Origin: a bacterium
GTDB lineage: Bacteria; Elusimicrobiota; Elusimicrobia; UBA1565; UBA9628
DNA length: 64,000 bases
Assembly: GCA_021822495.1 (NCBI GenBank)
Contig: JAKAQO010000001.1
Coordinates: forward strand, 1-64,000
Reading direction: 5' to 3'
Shown: positions 1-59,227 of the stretch, piece after piece
Numbering within the stretch: the stretch's first letter is position 1
Layout of the letters: each line of letters opens with the position of its first letter
Translations under genes and position numbers: made by a program
Notes under the pieces: generated by a model
Databases searched by the model: none
What the model was told of the DNA's origin: nothing
The model's input: only the letters and a program-made list of their open reading frames with translations

Positions 1-875
1 CGATCTGGGACAGTCCCCTTTTCGGCTAAGGTTTCAAGAGTGCGGACAACCGTGGTCCCGACCGCGATAATTTTCCCGCCGCGTTTCTGGGTCTCTTCAA
101 GTTTTCGCAAATTTTCCGCGTCCACATGGTAATATTCCGCAAGCATGAGGTGTTTGCGGATGTCTCTTGAAATAATCGGTTTAAAGGTTCCGCGGCCGAC
201 ATGAAGAGTCAAGCGGCAAATGGAGATTCCCCGGCGTTCTATTTCCTCAAGAAGTTCCGGGGTAAAATGAAGCCCTGCGGTGGGCGCGGCGATAGAGCCC
301 AGGTTTCGCGCATAAACGGTTTGATAGGACTCCTCATCGTTTTTTTCGGATGAAACCGGCGCGGAAGAAGATTTTCTTTTTTTGAGTATGTAGGGAGGAA
401 GAGGCGGCAAACCGCTTTGAGCCATGTAAGTCTGAATGTCCTCGCGGTCAAACCATATCAGATATTCGCCGTCTTCGTTTAAACCCTCAATCTTTCCCGT
501 CAGATTTCCCGCAAAAATTAATTCCTGATCTTTCTTAAAACCGGAACCCAAAGCCGCCCAAAGCCCCGGCTCAATTTCGCGCGTGAGAAGAATTTCCGCT
601 TTCCCCCCGCTTTTTTTCTTTCCGACCAAGCGGCAGGAAAAAACCTTGGTCTCGTTGAGAACCAGGCAATCCCCCGGCGAGAGATAACTGGGAAGATCGC
701 AGAATCGCTGATGGAAAATCTCATCTTTCTGGCGATCAAAAATTAGTAAGCGACAATCATCTCTTTTATCCAGCGGGCTTGCGGCCAACAATTCCTCGGG
801 ATAGGAAAAACGATAGGCCTCAAGGTCAAAATCAACGGGAAGATTTAAATCGGACATAGGCGTATTCTCGCTCAT
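1..875 (-). CDS. queA: S-adenosylmethionine:tRNA ribosyltransferase-isomerase, 3' end cut by the window
   Basis: QueA transfers and isomerises the ribosyl part of S-adenosylmethionine onto preQ1-modified tRNA, making epoxyqueuosine in the cytoplasm. The ORF track shows only shadows here because the frame leaves the window. Reading the minus strand gives family-typical stretches in order: 'YPEELLAASPLDKRD', 'GDCLVLNETKVF', 'GSIAAPTAGLHFTPELLEE', 'GRGTFKPI' and 'GTTVVRTLE'. About 291 codons of the usual 340-350 are present. I chose the ATG at 875 because it forms an ATGA overlap with the stop of the caspase gene; an in-frame ATG at 857 is the alternative. The last visible residues, 'EKGTVPDR', are encoded by a GGGACAGTCCC palindrome in a variable part of the family. 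Identity is confident; the start is moderately so. Confidence 0.93.
   Translation of the reverse strand, partial: MSENTPMSDLNLPVDFDLEAYRFSYPEELLAASPLDKRDDCRLLIFDRQKDEIFHQRFCDLPSYLSPGDCLVLNETKVFSCRLVGKKKSGGKAEILLTREIEPGLWAALGSGFKKDQELIFAGNLTGKIEGLNEDGEYLIWFDREDIQTYMAQSGLPPLPPYILKKRKSSSAPVSSEKNDEESYQTVYARNLGSIAAPTAGLHFTPELLEEIERRGISICRLTLHVGRGTFKPIISRDIRKHLMLAEYYHVDAENLRKLEETQKRGGKIIAVGTTVVRTLETLAEKGTVPD
7..17. repeat. GGGACAGTCCC palindrome inside queA
   Basis: The 11-base near-perfect palindrome GGGACAGTCCC lies within the queA reading frame and encodes the G-T-V-P of 'EKGTVPDR'. The same core occurs at 11241-11331, 19183-19205, 19251-19274 and 63185-63275, so it belongs to a dispersed repeat family rather than being specific to queA. 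Confidence 0.6.
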
Positions 876-2935
876 GGAACTAAAATAATAGGATTTGCCT
901 CGGCCACGTTTCCAGGTAAAAGTTCGGGAGTTTGCGTGCGGTTTTTCATTCCCGCCGCGTCCTCAACTTTCGGACGCAAATAACTATAAAGAGACTGCAC
1001 CGATATTTCTTTAGACTTATTCTTAGCCGCGCCGTTAAGCCCCTTTAAAAAATAATAGGTAAAGAGCCCGTGCCCTTCCGAGTTGAGAACTTCCGCGATC
1101 TGAGCGCCAGAGGCTGCCGTCATCGCGGCTACCCTTGTCGATAAAGGAGCCGATGGTGAGACAGTCAATAAAGGGCGCATTCCCGTTGGAGATAGAGACC
1201 TCGCGCCTCGCCCGGAAAAACATGAGTCCAAAGCGGCCACCACTTGTCGAGCGGGTAATTTCCCAAGAGTCAAATAAAGTCGAGAAAGGGGATAGGCCGT
1301 CTCCTTAAGATAATTAGGATCGCCGTCGGCGGGAACCAAATAAGTTTGATGAGTCTCCGGATCGGCCGCCCCATGACCTGAGAAATAGACAAAAACGGTG
1401 GATGAAGAGGAAACGACCTGCGGCAGCCAACCCTCCAGATTCTTGACCAGGGCCGCGCGCGTCGCTTTCTCATCTTTCAGCCAATGGATATGGCGCGGAG
1501 CGTACCCTAAAGCCATAAGATGCGCGCGCATAGCCTCGGCGTCGTGATCGGCAAAATCCGCCGCCGGAAGATTGTTTTCGTAATGTTCTATGCCTATCAC
1601 CAAGGCAATCTTAAACGGGTCCTCGGGAAAATGATAGGGAATGGCGTCCACATCGGAATGAATGACGATACGCACGGGAGAGACATGTTCTCCATGGTTT
1701 GGCGCGGCGGGTTTTGAATAATTTTGACCGAGCAATGAGGAAATTTTTTGATTTTTCGAAAAATCTTCGGCGCTCAGCCCTTGATTATTTCTAATGCTCG
1801 GCCAAGCCCCGTATTGGAGAAGAATCTGGACCATGGGAAAATTCTGTCTTTTGGCCGCCTCCATCAAAGCGGTATTTCCTGAAGAGTCTTGAATATTAGG
1901 ATCCGCTCCTTTTTGAAGAAGCGCCTTAACCTGATTAAACGCCCCGCCTTGAACGGCCAACATCAGCGGAGTGACGCCCAAGAGCCTTCTCCGCGCGGCT
2001 TCAAGACCCAGAAGTTGAGATTCCTCTTTTTGCGTTTCTTTACGAGGATTAAGCGCATAAGATTTCTTCAAGGAATCCAAGGCCGGGCCAAACTGCCAGG
2101 AATACTCCTCGGCCAAAGCCGCGTCCCAATAAATTTCTGACAAAGACTCTTTGCTAAAATGAAGGTCCATCACCTTTGGGTTTTTAAGGGCCGCATTAAA
2201 ATCTCGGGCGGCTTGAGCTATTTTTCCGGCCCGCACATCTTTGATTCCCTGGGCCACTTCAGAGATATCTCCCACTTTCTTAAAATCCGGATAAAACATT
2301 TTCCTAGACGGCAAAAAAAGCTTCGCCAAATCACCCGCCGCGGCATTGACGCAATTCTCGGTTAATTGCCCGCGGTCAATAGCGCCTGGAGAGGCGTTTT
2401 TGGCCTGGGTTTGCGCTTGACAAACTTTTGCGATAGTTTGAGAATGAATTAATCGCCCGGTTTTAGCATCCGTCACGTCTAAATGCCCGCCGATGCGGAG
2501 TCTCCCCACGCGCGTTTTTAAAGGACAAGGATGGGCGCGGTTATTCCACTGACAGGTATCCGGAGATTCCCTCACAAACTCATAATAATTTTTATTGATG
2601 GTCCCGGAAATAAATGCCGCATCGTGAAGAAGCGCCTCAATGCTTCCTGTCTTGACGCTGGCCGCATCTTGATTTTTGGCCAAATCATATTCCGCGACCA
2701 GGACATTGAGCCGATCACGGTTCATGAAATTAAAATTTCTCGAACGCGACAAATCCACGGCCAAAGAATCCTTAAAGCGCTGTCCCGCATTCCCGTTCAT
2801 ATCCCCAAATGCAAAGCTCCGATAGGGAGACAAATCAATCGCCGAAGGAAAGGTGACCGCCATGGGAACCTGAACCGTAGAGCAGGAAATAAGAAGAAGC
2901 GGGATGAAAAAGCATACGATTCGCCGGAAAGTCAT
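872..2935 (-). CDS. lipoprotein with ankyrin repeats and a C-terminal caspase-like (C14) domain
   Basis: A 687-residue predicted lipoprotein. Residues 1-17 are a signal peptide ending in a lipobox ('LLISC', Cys18). Residues about 30-220 look like a CsgG/LPP-type lipoprotein domain ('FKDSLAVDLSRSRNF'), about 225-310 may be TPR-like helices, and about 320-395 carry ankyrin repeats ('GVTPLMLAVQGG', 'GNTALMEAAKRQ'). From about 440 there is a caspase/metacaspase fold: 'IALVIGIEHYENN', then 'YFSGHG' with His521 and 'ALDSCFSG' with Cys572, the expected catalytic dyad. It overlaps the upstream receiver-kinase by ATGA and queA by ATGA, so it is the sixth gene of a coupled signalling operon. Substrate is unknown. 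Domain calls for caspase and ankyrin are strong; the N-terminal domain assignment is tentative. Confidence 0.85.
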   Translation of the reverse strand: MTFRRIVCFFIPLLLISCSTVQVPMAVTFPSAIDLSPYRSFAFGDMNGNAGQRFKDSLAVDLSRSRNFNFMNRDRLNVLVAEYDLAKNQDAASVKTGSIEALLHDAAFISGTINKNYYEFVRESPDTCQWNNRAHPCPLKTRVGRLRIGGHLDVTDAKTGRLIHSQTIAKVCQAQTQAKNASPGAIDRGQLTENCVNAAAGDLAKLFLPSRKMFYPDFKKVGDISEVAQGIKDVRAGKIAQAARDFNAALKNPKVMDLHFSKESLSEIYWDAALAEEYSWQFGPALDSLKKSYALNPRKETQKEESQLLGLEAARRRLLGVTPLMLAVQGGAFNQVKALLQKGADPNIQDSSGNTALMEAAKRQNFPMVQILLQYGAWPSIRNNQGLSAEDFSKNQKISSLLGQNYSKPAAPNHGEHVSPVRIVIHSDVDAIPYHFPEDPFKIALVIGIEHYENNLPAADFADHDAEAMRAHLMALGYAPRHIHWLKDEKATRAALVKNLEGWLPQVVSSSSTVFVYFSGHGAADPETHQTYLVPADGDPNYLKETAYPLSRLYLTLGKLPARQVVAALDSCFSGRGARSLSPTGMRPLLTVSPSAPLSTRVAAMTAASGAQIAEVLNSEGHGLFTYYFLKGLNGAAKNKSKEISVQSLYSYLRPKVEDAAGMKNRTQTPELLPGNVAEANPIILVP

Positions 2936-4071
2936 GAATTCTTAGAGACTGGAATCGTAAAGAAAAAAGTCGCCCCGCGCCCAATTCCTTCGCTTTCAAC
3001 GCCCATTTTCCCGCCATGGGCTTCGACAATTTCTTTGGAGGTCGCCAGCCCCAAGCCAAGACGCCCGCCTTTGGAAGCGTCCGGACCTTGATAAAAACTT
3101 TGAAAAATTTTACTCAGTTCCGTCGGCAAAATTCCGTCTCCGGAATCCTTCACTCCGAATCGAACAGCGGGGCTCGATTTTTCATTTAGAACCGGCCGCG
3201 CATAAACCAAAATTTCCCCGCCCTTGGAAGTATAGCGAATGGCATTTTCAAGCAAATTGTTAAGAACCTGGGAAATGCGCCTCTTATCAGCGAAAATTTC
3301 CGGCAAGGATTTTTCTATTTTTTCCGTGAATTTAATTCCGCGGGCCGCCGCCCGCGCCTGGGAACCCGGCAAAACTTCTTGCAAAAGAATTTCGGGGTCG
3401 AAGGTTTCCCGCTCAATTCTAAATTTTCCGTTCTCAATGGCGGCCCAATCAACCAAGTCCGCGGTCAAGCGCGTCAATTGGCTGATGCTGGAAGAAATCG
3501 CGACCATTCTTTTTTTCTGTTCTTCCGAAGGGCTCATCGTTTGAGACAGAAGCTCAAAACTCGCCTGAAGGGCCATTAAAGCGTTCGATAAATCATGGGA
3601 AGCCATGGAAAGAAATTTGGATTTCATCCGGTCCAGATGCTCCAATTCCTCGTTGGTTTTTTTAAGTTCGAGATTCATTCTCTCGTTTTCCCGCATCAAG
3701 CGCAACTTTTCCAATGAGTTTGAAATCGAGTGTTTGAGGCGGTCTACGTCGACCGGCTTGACCAAGAAATCCGCGACCGATTCCTGAAGCGCCATTACGG
3801 CAGTTTCCTGGGTTCGGTCCGCCGTAAGCATTAAAACCTGGCTTTTCAAATCGATTTTTCTAATTTTCTTGATAATCTGAATTCCAGTTGAGTTCGGCAA
3901 ATTATAATCCATCAAGATCACGTCAAATGAGCGCGCCCGCACTTGGTCCAAAGCCTCCTGTTCTCCGGAGGCCTTAAATACTTCATAACCGGCATCTTCA
4001 AGAACGTCGGACAAGGACTCCCGAATATGCGGGTCATCGTCTACGATTAAAATGCGCGCCTTGGGTTCCAT
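2932..4071 (-). CDS. hybrid protein: N-terminal receiver plus histidine kinase
   Basis: A 379-residue soluble signalling protein. Residues 5-120 form a receiver with acidic pocket 'VDDDPH', phospho-acceptor Asp55 ('LMDYNLP') and Lys in 'LVKPVD'. A coiled-coil linker leads to a HisKA domain whose H-box is 'ASHDLSNAL' (His159), an unusual variant of SHELRTPL. The ATPase domain shows the N-box 'NNLLENAIRYT', G1 'DSGDGI' and G2 'GLGLATSKEIVEAHGG'. With the receiver first and no sensor domain, it is built to be switched by another kinase, most simply the Cache kinase encoded directly upstream, whose stop overlaps this start (TAATG). It in turn overlaps the caspase lipoprotein gene (ATGA). The phosphotransfer order is inferred. 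Confidence 0.9.
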   Translation of the reverse strand: MEPKARILIVDDDPHIRESLSDVLEDAGYEVFKASGEQEALDQVRARSFDVILMDYNLPNSTGIQIIKKIRKIDLKSQVLMLTADRTQETAVMALQESVADFLVKPVDVDRLKHSISNSLEKLRLMRENERMNLELKKTNEELEHLDRMKSKFLSMASHDLSNALMALQASFELLSQTMSPSEEQKKRMVAISSSISQLTRLTADLVDWAAIENGKFRIERETFDPEILLQEVLPGSQARAAARGIKFTEKIEKSLPEIFADKRRISQVLNNLLENAIRYTSKGGEILVYARPVLNEKSSPAVRFGVKDSGDGILPTELSKIFQSFYQGPDASKGGRLGLGLATSKEIVEAHGGKMGVESEGIGRGATFFFTIPVSKNS

Positions 4072-38480: not shown

Positions 38481-38803
38481 TGGAAGAAAATAAACTCGCC
38501 GGCATCATTAAAGAAACAACCGAGACCAAACTGGGAACCCTTGAATGGAAAAAATCTCCCAACCCCCACATTCATCTTAAAGACTCTTCCGCCAATTCTC
38601 CCTGCGCCACGCAATGCAAGGATAAAACCTGCGTCACCGTCTGCCCGGCAAAGGTCTATGAATGGCACGGCGAGAAAAACTCAATCGTCGTCAACTACGA
38701 AAATTGTATTGAGTGCGGCGGATGCCGGATGCTGTGCCCTTTTGACAATATCGTCTGCGATTGGCCCGAAGGCGGCATGGGCGTCAAATACAAATACGGT
38801 TAA
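38480..38803 (+). CDS. fixX: ferredoxin-like protein FixX
   Basis: FixX is the iron-sulfur partner of FixC. The 107-residue product has Cys motifs 'CATQCKDKTCVTVCPAKVYEW' region and 'CIECGGCRMLCPFDNI', as in the single [4Fe-4S]-binding ETF-QO C-terminal domain. The track start at 38453 lies inside fixC; the ATG at 38480 overlaps the fixC stop and gives the family length. The 3' end overlaps the converging HEAT-protein gene by four bases. Confidence 0.93.
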   Translation: MEENKLAGIIKETTETKLGTLEWKKSPNPHIHLKDSSANSPCATQCKDKTCVTVCPAKVYEWHGEKNSIVVNYENCIECGGCRMLCPFDNIVCDWPEGGMGVKYKYG

Positions 38804-41223
38804 TTCAGCCCCAGCCGCCCAAGTTCCGACTGATACAAATATCCAAAATGCCAGGGGCCCACAATTTCAGGAAAACGTTTTGGCATTTGAGATTCCAAGT
38901 TCTTGCCGACTTTCCGCCAAGAAACGCCTTTTGAAAGCCAGTCCAGGGCGGAAAACAAAACCTCATTGTCCACCCGGTAATAGCCTGTTCCCTCATTGGC
39001 CAAGACCACGCACTTGGGGCAGGCTTTTTTAATTTCAGTAATTTGATCGACCGAGCGGCAGGAACCTAAAAAAACCAGTTTTGGCTTATTGCCCGCGTAA
39101 TTTTTCAGCAAATCCGGAGTGGTCGCCGTAAACCAGGGCTCTCCCCGCATCGCCATCCACTGAGAGCCCAAAACCCGGCTTTTAAGGTGAACGGTTTTCT
39201 CCCACTCTTTCCATTCCTCGCTGGTGCGATGAACCCAGCGAAAACCCTCTTGACCCCTGGGCGGACCAATGAGCTCTATGAGAATAAAACCGCGCTTTAA
39301 GACGATCCTCGGGCCAGTTTCAATGACCTTATATCCGCGAGATAAGGCCGCTTTCAAAAAATCCCTAAATTGCCGATATTGGTCAAAGGCGATAAAGCCT
39401 TTCATTTGTCTTCGATTTTTTCCAAAAATGAGATCAGGGTTAATCGCGGGAGAACGGGCAAAATTTCCGGGCAAGGTGACGGCAGAATTAATTAAATTTT
39501 TCTCTTCTGGGTTCAGGCGACGGCCATAATAATCGCGAATGGCCGACAAAAGGGCGTCTAAACGCTTGGAGTCAATGCCGGTGGAACGGCTCTTTTGACG
39601 GATCAATCCCTTAATAAAAGCGAAGCGATCTTTTTGGGGCCAGGAAGAGAGAGCCTCATCGCAAAAAGCCCCCATCCGCACGGCATCCCATCCGCCGTGG
39701 GCGTCATCCAACCCAGGCGGAAAAACATAGGAGGCAAGATTCATCGCCAGCCTCGGGTTTTGACTGAGAAGCGGGGTTAATAAATCCATCTCGGAAAGCC
39801 TCAAGAAAAAATTTCTCGTCTCGGATTTACCTGGGTCCTCGGCATTGAGCCAATCAAGAAGACCCTCATTTTTACTTTTTATTTTTTTCTCAACATTGGA
39901 AAGTGCCGCCTCTCCCACGTCATGGGCATGAATGGGACTTATCGCCAAAACCGCGTAAAGAGCGTCCGAATTAGTTAAAGAATCAAAAAGGCGTTGCTGG
40001 TCCTTGGGACTTGAATCCGATAATAAGTGCGCTTGCTCGACCATATACCCTAAAACGCTTTGAGCCTGATATTTGAGGGAATGAGCCTGAGACCAAGAAT
40101 TTTCGCTGGATAAAACCTTCGTAAAAACGGCCACCTCCGTCATCATCTTGGAAGCTTGAGGATCCAAGGAGAAAGAGACGCTGGACTTGAGCCCCAGGCG
40201 TTCCAAAAATAAGGAAAGCCCTAGGTTATGATTTTGTTCCTCGGCTTTATTTAGTCGGATAAAATCCGCGCGTAAGATGTTGAGAGCCACTCCCAAGGAT
40301 TCTCCTCTGGCCGCTTTGGAATCAATGGCGTCAGAAACCATGTTCAAAGCGGCCGTTAAAGAACGCGTATCCCGACTGCGGTTTAAGGCGGTCAAGATTT
40401 TACCACGGACATAATCGTCATCTTCTTTTTGGAACAAATCCCAGAGATCGTCAACCGCCTCCGGCCCCCCCAAGGTTCCCAACCAGTGAACGGCGGCGGC
40501 GCGAACCCAGCGGGAATTATCCGTTTTCGCGATTTGACCCAGTTTTGGCAAAGACGCAAAGCCGGAGAGCCCCAAAAGTCGCACTCCACTGATTCGCTCA
40601 AATTCGTTGGGGCTTTTCAATTCCGTTTGAAGCAGGGGAGAATTTAAAGAAATAGCCCTCGGCTTGCCCGAAGCGGCGGGCTCTCCGACGGAAGAAGAAG
40701 GCGAGTTTGCGCCGTCAAAAAGCCAACCCCAGGAATTATTTCCGGAAGATAAAGATGCGCGAATTTTAGCCATGACGCGGGAGTTAAGACGCGCCGTCAA
40801 TAACGAACGCAAAATCTCGGGATGAGACGATAAATAATCCTGCGCTGATTTTTGAGAAGAAACGGGAAGGTTCAAGCGGCTGACCACGAAGGCCGCCGAA
40901 GACGAGTTAAAATTTTTTAAGTTGTCGATGACTTGGCGAAGCTCCCCGCTTCCGGCGTATTGGAGAGGCTTGATGACAGAAAAATTCTCTAAATCTAAAT
41001 GAACAAAAGTCCCGTCTTCGACTCCGAGGCCGTAAGACTTGAGGAACTCAAAACGAGAGCCGACTAGCGCTGAGATTCTTTGTCCTAAACCTCCATCCGT
41101 AAAATGCGGGCGATGGGCAATCACGCGCTCGGGCAGGCGAAAAGAAGAAAACGTATTTGAACGCGGGGATAAAGCGGCAAAAAGCGGAGAAAGAAAAAAA
41201 GCAAGGAGCAGGCGAAGTTTCAT
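38800..41223 (-). CDS. exported HEAT-repeat protein with an unknown C-terminal domain
   Basis: An 807-residue protein with a signal peptide (1-17, 'LLLAFFLSPLFAAL'), HEAT/PBS-type repeats at about 200-300 ('FERISGVRLLGLSGFASLPKL', 'WVRAAAVHWLGTLGGPEAVDD', 'YVRGKILTALNRSRDTRSL'), a long helical middle, and a C-terminal alpha/beta region with 'KPKLVFLGSCRSVDQI' and 'VLANEGTGYYRVDNEVLFSAL'. The strand-ending Cys resembles clan CD peptidases (caspase, CHAT, gingipain), and 'FRWVHRTSEEW' about 50 residues earlier could supply the His, but the usual HG motif is absent, so this is speculative. Last gene of the fabG-acpP-rnc run. Confidence 0.7.
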   Translation of the reverse strand: MKLRLLLAFFLSPLFAALSPRSNTFSSFRLPERVIAHRPHFTDGGLGQRISALVGSRFEFLKSYGLGVEDGTFVHLDLENFSVIKPLQYAGSGELRQVIDNLKNFNSSSAAFVVSRLNLPVSSQKSAQDYLSSHPEILRSLLTARLNSRVMAKIRASLSSGNNSWGWLFDGANSPSSSVGEPAASGKPRAISLNSPLLQTELKSPNEFERISGVRLLGLSGFASLPKLGQIAKTDNSRWVRAAAVHWLGTLGGPEAVDDLWDLFQKEDDDYVRGKILTALNRSRDTRSLTAALNMVSDAIDSKAARGESLGVALNILRADFIRLNKAEEQNHNLGLSLFLERLGLKSSVSFSLDPQASKMMTEVAVFTKVLSSENSWSQAHSLKYQAQSVLGYMVEQAHLLSDSSPKDQQRLFDSLTNSDALYAVLAISPIHAHDVGEAALSNVEKKIKSKNEGLLDWLNAEDPGKSETRNFFLRLSEMDLLTPLLSQNPRLAMNLASYVFPPGLDDAHGGWDAVRMGAFCDEALSSWPQKDRFAFIKGLIRQKSRSTGIDSKRLDALLSAIRDYYGRRLNPEEKNLINSAVTLPGNFARSPAINPDLIFGKNRRQMKGFIAFDQYRQFRDFLKAALSRGYKVIETGPRIVLKRGFILIELIGPPRGQEGFRWVHRTSEEWKEWEKTVHLKSRVLGSQWMAMRGEPWFTATTPDLLKNYAGNKPKLVFLGSCRSVDQITEIKKACPKCVVLANEGTGYYRVDNEVLFSALDWLSKGVSWRKVGKNLESQMPKRFPEIVGPWHFGYLYQSELGRLGLN

Positions 41224-57373: not shown

Positions 57374-59227
57374 ATGAAAGAAATAAAAAAAGTCCGGTCC
57401 GCGGCGTGGATTTCTTTCCTTATTCTTCTCTCTCTTGGCCAGAGGCGCCGCGGCGCCCTGGCGCAAGAAGCCAGGATAGAAGCCGCGCCCATGGGGAATT
57501 TCGAAATACCTTTATCTCCCGGTGAAGACTCATTAAACCCGCAAATCCTCCCCTCGAACATTCCCTCGGACGATCATTTGGAACTTAAACAAGAAAACGC
57601 CAAGGTTCCGCGGAATTTGAGGGAAGAAATTTTGCCAATCACGCAAGAGACAAAAACCTCAAAATCGCCGAATACCCTTGGCGGAAATACGAGGGACTCT
57701 TTCATTCACGCTCCAGAGACTATTCCGAGCGGCGCCGAGAGCGGCGTCCAAAGCCTTCGGGAAAATGCGGCACATTCTTTAAGCCGCGCCCGGAAAGCCA
57801 TTACCGAGTTCACGGATGGAACCGCCGGCCGGCCCTCGGACGGCTCCTTGCATTCCGATTTAGCGCCCACCACAATGCCGGAAGAAATGACTGCGGCTAA
57901 AATGCGCCGCCGCGAATCCGGTTTCCTTGCAAAGACCCTGGGTTATTCCCCGGAATTAAAAAAGCTCTTGCCATCCTTAATTTTCAAACGCGACGCCAAG
58001 GACTCGGACTGGGAGAATCTCGCGAATTTCCTGGGAAGACAGCATCCCTGCGACGTTACATGGGGCCTCTATAATTCCATTCGGAATGTCGCCATGGCCG
58101 AGAAACCCGCGCGCGAAAGAGCCGCTCTTGCGCTCCATCTCTCCAGCGAATACGCCAAATTTCTCGATAAAATCGTAGACGACCAGCGAATGCCGGTTGC
58201 GTTTAGGAAAGAAGCCAAGGCCGCCGTTAAACCCTTCTCGGACGGAACGCTGGTGCAGGCGCTCCTTCTTGCCCGCCAAGACCGCAATCAATGGAAGCAA
58301 ACAGCATCCTTAAGCGCTCCCCAGGAGAAAAGAAATCCAAAAGCCTCGCCCCAAGACGCCAAGGAACCGGAAACAATCGCGCCCTGGCTTGTTCCGACGC
58401 CGGAGGCCGAGAATAAAACTGGAAAAGCCGGAGAAGTCAACTCTTTCCAATGGTCCCTCCGCGAAATCTCGACTAAGCTTGTCAATCGATATTTCTTTTA
58501 TGAGAAGGCCTTGTCGAGAAGGCGTCTCGCGTCGGCGGGACCTATCCGCTTTTCAAGGAAACTTAAGACTCGTTTAACCTATAAGATTAGTAAAGAATTC
58601 AAGACTCTGCGCAATTTTATTTATTATTACGATACAGATATCGACCGTTTCATTGACTTTACAATCTACAGAGGTCTTTTTCCGGAGAAAAAGCGGCGGG
58701 TCATAAGCGTTGCCAACTACGATGGCTTGGAAATGGCGGAAACTGCATCAGGCTTCGTAATTCGCGCTCATTTTCTAACGGACATCGACAATCAAGCCGT
58801 CCTGGACGCCGTGAAAACCTCCATCGAGGACTACTGGCGGGGAGAATTCTCCTACAGCGGCAAAACCTACAATCTGCAAACCGAGGTTTCCATCGAACGC
58901 ATCAAGCCGGGGACGCTTCCTTCCTCTAAGCAATTGCAAATCCTCGACGGCTTCAACCAAACCAGCCATGTTGGGAGAGGCGAGCCCATCATTGTCTTGG
59001 GAAGAACATCCCTATCCTATACAACCGCCGCTCATGAATTTGGGCATATTCTCGGATTAAACGACGAATACCAGGAAAGTTATAATTTTTCATCGCATCA
59101 AGGAAGCTCAATAGCGCCTTATGACAGTCTAATGGCCCAGGATCGGACTGGAAACGTTTTGCCGCGGCATCTTAAGATCGTCTACCAGCTCCTGCGCCGC
59201 CATTCGCTTGCGAGGGAAAGACATTAG
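57374..59227 (+). CDS. exported metzincin-like zinc metalloprotease with a long pro-region
   Basis: A 617-residue protein. A signal sequence ('AAWISFLILLSLGQRRRGALA') is followed by about 350 residues of low-complexity and helical sequence without known motifs, then an alpha/beta domain ('SVANYDGLEMAETASGFVIRA', 'DIDNQAVLDAVKTSIEDYW') ending in 'TAAHEFGHILGLNDEYQE'. HExxHxxGxxD (His554, Glu555, His558, Asp564) is a metzincin zinc motif with Asp as the third ligand, as in snapalysin, and 'DSLMAQ' about 30 residues later can be the Met-turn. I cannot place it in a named family. The N-terminal half may be a propeptide or a surface-binding region. Confidence 0.72.
   Translation: MKEIKKVRSAAWISFLILLSLGQRRRGALAQEARIEAAPMGNFEIPLSPGEDSLNPQILPSNIPSDDHLELKQENAKVPRNLREEILPITQETKTSKSPNTLGGNTRDSFIHAPETIPSGAESGVQSLRENAAHSLSRARKAITEFTDGTAGRPSDGSLHSDLAPTTMPEEMTAAKMRRRESGFLAKTLGYSPELKKLLPSLIFKRDAKDSDWENLANFLGRQHPCDVTWGLYNSIRNVAMAEKPARERAALALHLSSEYAKFLDKIVDDQRMPVAFRKEAKAAVKPFSDGTLVQALLLARQDRNQWKQTASLSAPQEKRNPKASPQDAKEPETIAPWLVPTPEAENKTGKAGEVNSFQWSLREISTKLVNRYFFYEKALSRRRLASAGPIRFSRKLKTRLTYKISKEFKTLRNFIYYYDTDIDRFIDFTIYRGLFPEKKRRVISVANYDGLEMAETASGFVIRAHFLTDIDNQAVLDAVKTSIEDYWRGEFSYSGKTYNLQTEVSIERIKPGTLPSSKQLQILDGFNQTSHVGRGEPIIVLGRTSLSYTTAAHEFGHILGLNDEYQESYNFSSHQGSSIAPYDSLMAQDRTGNVLPRHLKIVYQLLRRHSLARERH

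Follow-up and report, generated by a model that had tools for sequence, protein, structure and literature searches.

Discussion of bacterial caspases usually casts them as regulators, or executioners of cell death, that act in the cytoplasm. What, then, is a caspase domain doing at the end of a polypeptide that begins with a signal peptide and a lipobox? The question is raised by a gene of an Elusimicrobiota bacterium (Elusimicrobia; UBA1565; UBA9628), found near the start of the window, i.e. the whole stretch of 64,000 nucleotides analysed here (positions 1 to 64,000 of contig JAKAQO010000001.1, GenBank assembly GCA_021822495.1). We favour, with moderate confidence, the reading that its product is an envelope-anchored and probably Arg/Lys-specific orthocaspase, in which the N-terminal modules position and regulate the caspase domain. 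The gene and the parts of its product are located as follows.

872..2935, minus strand: gene of the CsgG-like/TPR/ankyrin/caspase lipoprotein (open reading frame of 687 amino acids, ATG at 2935, stop at 872-874)
920..1612, minus strand: caspase (Peptidase_C14) domain, residues 442-672 (Pfam at 5e-16, AlphaFold2, Foldseek)
1373..1375, minus strand: predicted catalytic His521 (SGHG motif aligned with the metacaspase GHG)
1220..1222, minus strand: predicted catalytic Cys572 (DSCFSG motif aligned with the metacaspase DSC)
1541..1543, minus strand: Asp465, predicted S1-pocket acid (invariant in the family, aligned with the ND Asp of TbMCA2 and Yca1)
1226..1228, minus strand: Asp570, second predicted S1-pocket acid (the Asp of DSC in the family, by motif position)
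1169..1201, minus strand: loop RSLSPTGMRPL (GxRSVxxxGxRPLV in the family), residues 579-589, candidate self-cleavage or activation loop
1634..1657, minus strand: linker motif SDVDAIPY (SDVDxPxY in the family), residues 427-434, conserved despite differing N-termini
1751..1987, minus strand: two ankyrin repeats and a partial cap, residues 317-395 (Pfam Ank/Ank_5, about 4e-15)
1988..2290, minus strand: TPR-type helical region, residues 216-316 (TPR_2 in stand-alone homologs, low-confidence model helices)
2291..2848, minus strand: CsgG-like domain, residues about 30-215 (Pfam CsgG, homologs, Foldseek)
2882..2935, minus strand: signal peptide and lipobox LISC with predicted lipidated Cys18 and Ser at +2 (from the sequence; lipobox retained in orthologs)

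The caspase domain and its N-terminal modules

A first-pass annotation, made from the letters of the DNA, had proposed a caspase fold for the C-terminal part of the protein, and both profile and structure bear this out. The Pfam C14 match covers positions 2-223 of the 233 of that model. The AlphaFold2 model of the domain, built from 76 family sequences, reaches a mean predicted local distance difference test score (pLDDT) of 92.5 and a predicted template modelling score of 0.91, and its strands continue past the catalytic Cys. Foldseek ranks MALT1 first among the PDB structures (E 4e-12, template modelling (TM) score 0.65-0.68, the value of 0.68 being obtained against the caspase-domain structure), followed by animal caspases, GSU0716 of Geobacter and metacaspases. 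In the sequence-profile comparison, metacaspases of yeast, plants and trypanosomes are the closest chains of known structure, with GHG and DSC aligned. The His-Cys pair, which that annotation had called intact, is placed by this motif alignment exactly at residues 521 and 572. Since D465 and D570 form an acidic S1 pair as in metacaspases and MALT1, where it selects Arg or Lys (PMC5756287), cleavage after Arg or Lys is predicted, in line with the preference first suggested. An Asp-specific metazoan caspase was considered and rejected: the S1 positions read as Asp, like those of metacaspases, and not as a basic pocket.

Two further motifs mark the family to which this domain belongs. Across the 111 members read, the linker columns 427, 429, 430 and 432 are conserved at 81% or more, and in the loop following the catalytic Cys the conservation is 97% for R579, 100% for S580, 93% for R587 and 97% for P588. 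Residues 579-589 are also the least confident part of the caspase model (pLDDT about 61-63). Because the loop is near-invariant, follows the catalytic Cys and has the lowest model confidence, it may be a mobile activation or self-cleavage loop. The SDVDxPxY linker and the GxRSVxxxGxRPLV loop are absent from the five caspases of other phyla that were compared, and together provide a sequence signature for finding more members.

Among known proteins, the bacterial orthocaspases, e.g. MaOC1 of Microcystis, are similar by the caspase fold, the His-Cys dyad, the acidic S1 pair, the presence of extra interaction domains and the multicopy genomes. They differ in that their extra domains are commonly C-terminal (PMC5756287), whereas here the caspase is itself the C-terminal domain of a predicted exported lipoprotein, and in that, among the sequences compared, the linker and loop motifs are specific to the present family. 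MALT1 is the best match by fold and metacaspases are the best by sequence profile, the dyad and the S1 Asp being equivalent; unlike MALT1, the window protein has neither Ig (by Pfam scan) nor death domains, shares only 16% identity with it and stands in a bacterial lipoprotein context. The absence of an Ig match in that scan led us to reject a MALT1-type paracaspase. The nearest named subfamily model is NF047832 of NCBIfam (EACC1-associated caspase, 4.6e-26), to which the protein does not belong with 91.6 bits against a cut-off of 140.

At the other end of the protein, the chain starts with MTFRRIVCFFIPLLLISC18, which reads as a signal peptide and lipobox, and the genome encodes two Lgt, one LspA and one LolA, all exceeding curated cut-offs, so that on sequence the features expected of a bacterial lipoprotein, the lipobox Cys and the processing enzymes, are both present. 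From these we infer that the protein is exported and lipidated, which agrees with the lipobox and the envelope tether of the first description. In E. coli, a Ser at +2 is compatible with sorting to the outer membrane. We observe besides that the two Lgt genes stand in tandem (G000:C4:602736-604266), the lipidating enzyme thus being duplicated.

Between the two ends lie the CsgG-like, TPR and ankyrin modules. With the Pfam CsgG profile the whole protein scores 20.0 bits, just under the cut-off of 20.8, and the N-terminal part alone 22.0 bits. Stand-alone proteins of about 350 residues, found in three genomes of other genera (G037, G132 and G020), match the N-terminal segment over nearly its full length with 26-29% identity, and the two that were scanned (L135 and L137) match CsgG (to 1.4e-12), LpoB and TPR_2 (1e-6). 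Because these homologs match clearly, the CsgG and TPR assignments stand in spite of the marginal score of the window copy. The N-terminal model, from 15 sequences, is fair (pLDDT 68.6 overall, higher in the CsgG-like part), and Foldseek with the CsgG-like half retrieves CsgG, HpaA, FlgT and PelC at E values of about 1e-5 to 1e-4; a CsgG core domain is thus indicated by score, homologs and fold alike. The label "CsgG/LPP-like" initially given to this domain therefore holds for CsgG, but LPP20 has no match in the window polypeptide. The TPR and ankyrin domains of the same list were both recovered, the former through the stand-alone homologs and the latter as two repeats at residues 318-389.

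Like the CsgG, FlgT, LpoB and HpaA lipoproteins, the protein has an N-terminal lipobox and, by profile and fold, an alpha/beta core. It differs from them by its fusion to TPR, ankyrin and caspase parts, and the likeness, from profiles and single-chain models, is that of the core domain and offers no evidence for the CsgG pore. In view of the stand-alone CsgG-TPR homologs and the CsgG-type fold matches, the window gene looks as if an envelope lipoprotein had been fused to an ankyrin-caspase unit. The ankyrin repeats are plausibly, as first proposed, a device for binding a substrate or a partner; in the caspase family they occur in only about 40% of members (34/88).

CsgG partners and the family of predicted exported caspases

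Fusion is not the only link between caspases and CsgG. In G037 and G132 a caspase gene is immediately preceded by a CsgG-DUF4384 gene that overlaps the caspase start, and the caspase of the G037 pair also bears ankyrin repeats; in G242, which belongs to a different family, a homologous CsgG-DUF4384 gene overlaps a caspase gene likewise (two-gene units L222, L233 and L235). Caspase and CsgG are thus linked by fusion or by operon, and the two modes agree, since these overlapping genes of three further genomes join the domain types that are fused in the window protein. The two-gene unit may be an older, unfused form of the same idea. Related neighbourhoods were met elsewhere: a DUF4384-type gene is the convergent neighbour in G006, and a FlgT_N-DUF4384 lipoprotein adjoins the C7 paralog in 5/5 genomes of the genus, the source genome having only two DUF4384 genes in all. 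The stand-alone CsgG-TPR genes adjoin further exported proteins; in G132 both neighbours match LPP20 (one above cut-off), and LPP20 was not found among the neighbours of the gene in G020. These clusters, in which a CsgG-TPR lipoprotein gene is accompanied by genes for one or two further exported proteins (L135, L136 with LPP20, and L137), look in their own right like an uncharacterised envelope system.

The window gene does not stand alone in its genome either: five further caspase genes are present there, with matching parts 43-50% identical to it. A search for relatives gave matches in 34 of 38 genomes (ankyrin-only matches included), and at least 23 copies were listed for G015. Phylum-wide, the caspase domain occurs in 70 of 295 genomes, high copy numbers being confined to this order. 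The initial description was of a single gene: the multigene family, the stand-alone CsgG-TPR homologs, the CsgG-DUF4384/caspase operons and the strand were missing from it.

Export appears to be the rule in this family. A lipobox was found in 61 of the 101 members with a complete start, out of 111 copies read, and a signal-peptide-like N-terminus in 32 more; the same rule applied to control reading frames of the window gave a lipobox in 1/28. As 18 of these 28 controls also had a hydrophobic N-terminus, the signal-peptide-like class is weak evidence taken alone. Nearly all of the about 100 copies of the lineage are nevertheless predicted to be exported, so that an exported caspase, which the first-pass annotation saw as an exception, is here the common case. 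N-terminal helices had in fact been noted already in 2012, when transmembrane helices were reported in 15% of prokaryotic caspase sequences, mostly N-terminal and possibly signal peptides (PMC3501461). The modules preceding the caspase vary widely: besides the ankyrin repeats we found Sel1 (5 of 88) and WD40 (3 of 88), and many others have no common Pfam match. The family is thus specific to the lineage and combines a single type of caspase cassette with many different N-terminal modules. Shuffling of domains was examined on the tree: the ankyrin label changes 17 times against 21.7 for shuffled labels, but the domain tree is weakly resolved and its well-supported branches force only 2 changes, so that shuffling is not proven.

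Among the roughly 115 copies read, only one does not have both the dyad and the S1 acids intact. These counts are partly circular for the dyad, because the members were selected by those motifs; when the matches that this filter had passed over were inspected by eye, a single copy proved to lack the catalytic His. This copy, the second of two tandem caspase genes (L059, contig C22 of G028), has Tyr in place of His (YAGYGAPD) and keeps the Cys; beside its intact tandem copy it is possibly a pseudo-protease partner.

The 2012 survey counted zero caspase homologs in Elusimicrobia, few genomes being available at that time (PMC3501461), and for this reason the expansion appears undocumented. In the literature searched, subscription papers excluded, we found nothing else on caspases of Elusimicrobia and nothing on CsgG, caspase domain and ankyrin repeat together; the exported family and its expansion are thus apparently undescribed there. 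A whole bacterial order with predicted envelope caspases, reaching at least 23 copies in a genome, poses the problem of the function of caspases beyond the cytoplasm.

Competing explanations

For the envelope-anchored orthocaspase that we favour, the mechanism would run as follows. The signal peptide and the lipobox would export the protein, and the lipid would fix it to the envelope, probably at the outer membrane. With its origin in a free-standing lipoprotein of the envelope, the CsgG-like/TPR module would place the caspase in an envelope assembly, while the ankyrin repeats would bind a partner or a substrate. The C-terminal caspase would then cut proteins after Arg or Lys, whether periplasmic or on the cell surface, and would probably be kept in check until the protein changes conformation or cleaves itself within the conserved loop that follows Cys572.

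Several points weigh against this reading. As regards activity, we infer the proteolysis itself as well as the P1 specificity, the regulation and the site of action. Signal peptides and lipoboxes were assigned by a simple rule, not by a trained predictor. The likeness of the CsgG-like module is remote (Foldseek TM scores, normalised by query length, do not exceed 0.34), and the model of the TPR half is poor; most sampled family members adjoin no CsgG or DUF4384 gene; and the two-component link of the window gene, described below, was found only in this genus among the genomes examined.

The conserved loop invites another explanation, which we judge unlikely: that the caspase mainly processes itself, e.g. 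at R579 or near the SDVD linker, freeing the CsgG/ankyrin part or itself from the membrane and having no other substrate. The near-invariant R-S and R-P pairs in the low-confidence loop right after the catalytic Cys speak for it, as do the self-processing of MaOC1 (PMC5756287) and the release of toxins by caspase-like domains in polymorphic toxins (PMC3482391). However, no further domain follows the caspase that it could release, the SDVD linker lacks a conserved Arg or Lys, and the loop could equally be conserved for substrate binding. We give slightly less credit to a surface-exposed antagonistic or predatory effector, in which variable N-terminal carriers would deliver a secreted caspase warhead in the manner of polymorphic toxins. 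A caspase that stays constant at the C-terminus while the N-termini vary greatly, in many exported copies, would fit, and a toxin role has been suggested for C-terminal caspase domains (PMC3482391); yet inspection of the neighbours revealed no recognisable immunity gene, no RHS, HINT or secretion-specific domain was seen, the gene, far from turning over fast, is under strong purifying selection and keeps a fixed synteny, and lipid anchoring suggests retention. Membership in the polymorphic toxin class was likewise rejected, the C-terminal domain being constant, the N-terminus variable and no immunity gene recognised among the neighbours.

The gene order suggests still another role, improbable in our view, as the output of the adjacent two-component system, i.e. 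an envelope-stress protease made together with sensor kinases. The caspase gene overlaps a hybrid kinase gene by 4 bases, in an order kept in the genus, and the neighbouring kinase has a dCache sensor domain; on the other hand, the cluster of two response regulators, histidine kinase and hybrid regulator/kinase is kept across the order without an adjoining caspase, which led us to reject it as a functional unit with the caspase beyond the genus, and the caspase gene also shares an overlap with queA, a housekeeping gene. Finally, a non-proteolytic scaffold, the caspase fold serving as a binding module, seems very improbable: pseudo-orthocaspases are known (PMC6426788) and the His to Tyr copy of G028 may be of this kind, but the dyad and the S1 acids are intact in the window protein, as in nearly the whole family, and the caspase domain is among its most conserved parts.

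Beyond the single protein, the Elusimicrobiota of this order could run an envelope protease network, with up to dozens of exported caspases bearing interchangeable sensor N-termini, some of them tied to CsgG, FlgT or DUF4384 proteins by fusion or operon. We regard this as doubtful; if true, it would be a caspase-based system of signalling, remodelling or death outside the cytoplasm.

Genomic surroundings and further observations

The window gene is flanked as follows.

2932..4071, minus strand: upstream hybrid response regulator-histidine kinase (4-base start/stop overlap with the caspase gene)
3..875, minus strand: downstream queA, partial at the window edge (queA start overlapping the stop of the caspase gene)

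Orthologs are present in four other members of the genus, with 77-80% identity. Wherever the contigs of these relatives reach, the gene order is identical: ruvA-ruvB-spoIID, a membrane protein gene, two response regulators, a histidine kinase, the hybrid regulator/kinase, the caspase gene, queA and tgt; both overlaps of the caspase gene are kept. The ratio of nonsynonymous to synonymous substitution rates (dN/dS) among the orthologs lies between 0.06 and 0.17 in each of the four modules (CsgG-like, TPR, ankyrin and caspase), with a less constrained linker, so that every module outside the linker is under purifying selection. Given this low dN/dS and the conserved gene order, the architecture of the 687-residue frame is not due to chance. 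In the ortholog of G003 (L013:1041-1568), an in-frame tandem repeat of 66 bases, with at least 6 units, lies upstream of the lipobox, and the real start is probably at the end of this repeat or downstream of it.

Other origins and roles were considered and set aside. No match was found in 50,697 phage records and no confirmed relative in viral contigs; caspases of plasmids are at most 32% identical; and PADLOC yields only generic caspase and ankyrin-type models, which does not support a role as a defence system. One plasmid caspase, WP_207563255 of Sulfurimonas aquatica (L213:1427-4233), is nonetheless similar in organisation, with a signal-peptide-like start, a C-terminal caspase and an overlapping LPP20 lipoprotein gene (WP_207563256); it belongs to another phylum, shares 30% identity with the window protein and lacks the ankyrin repeats, the SDVD linker and the RS/RP loop.

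Some exported-looking proteins were noticed in passing. On the minus strand of the window, positions 38800-41223 encode one of 807 amino acids with HEAT repeats and a C-terminal domain that contains FLGSCRS and has no Pfam match; on the plus strand, positions 57374-59227 encode another with a weak metalloprotease signature (M6/astacin-like, HEFGHILG). Lastly, at L048:795-3243 (contig C15 of G000), three small exported-looking proteins encoded in tandem share near-identical segments (MGKNQNSQAAQTLKGLKNIK...).

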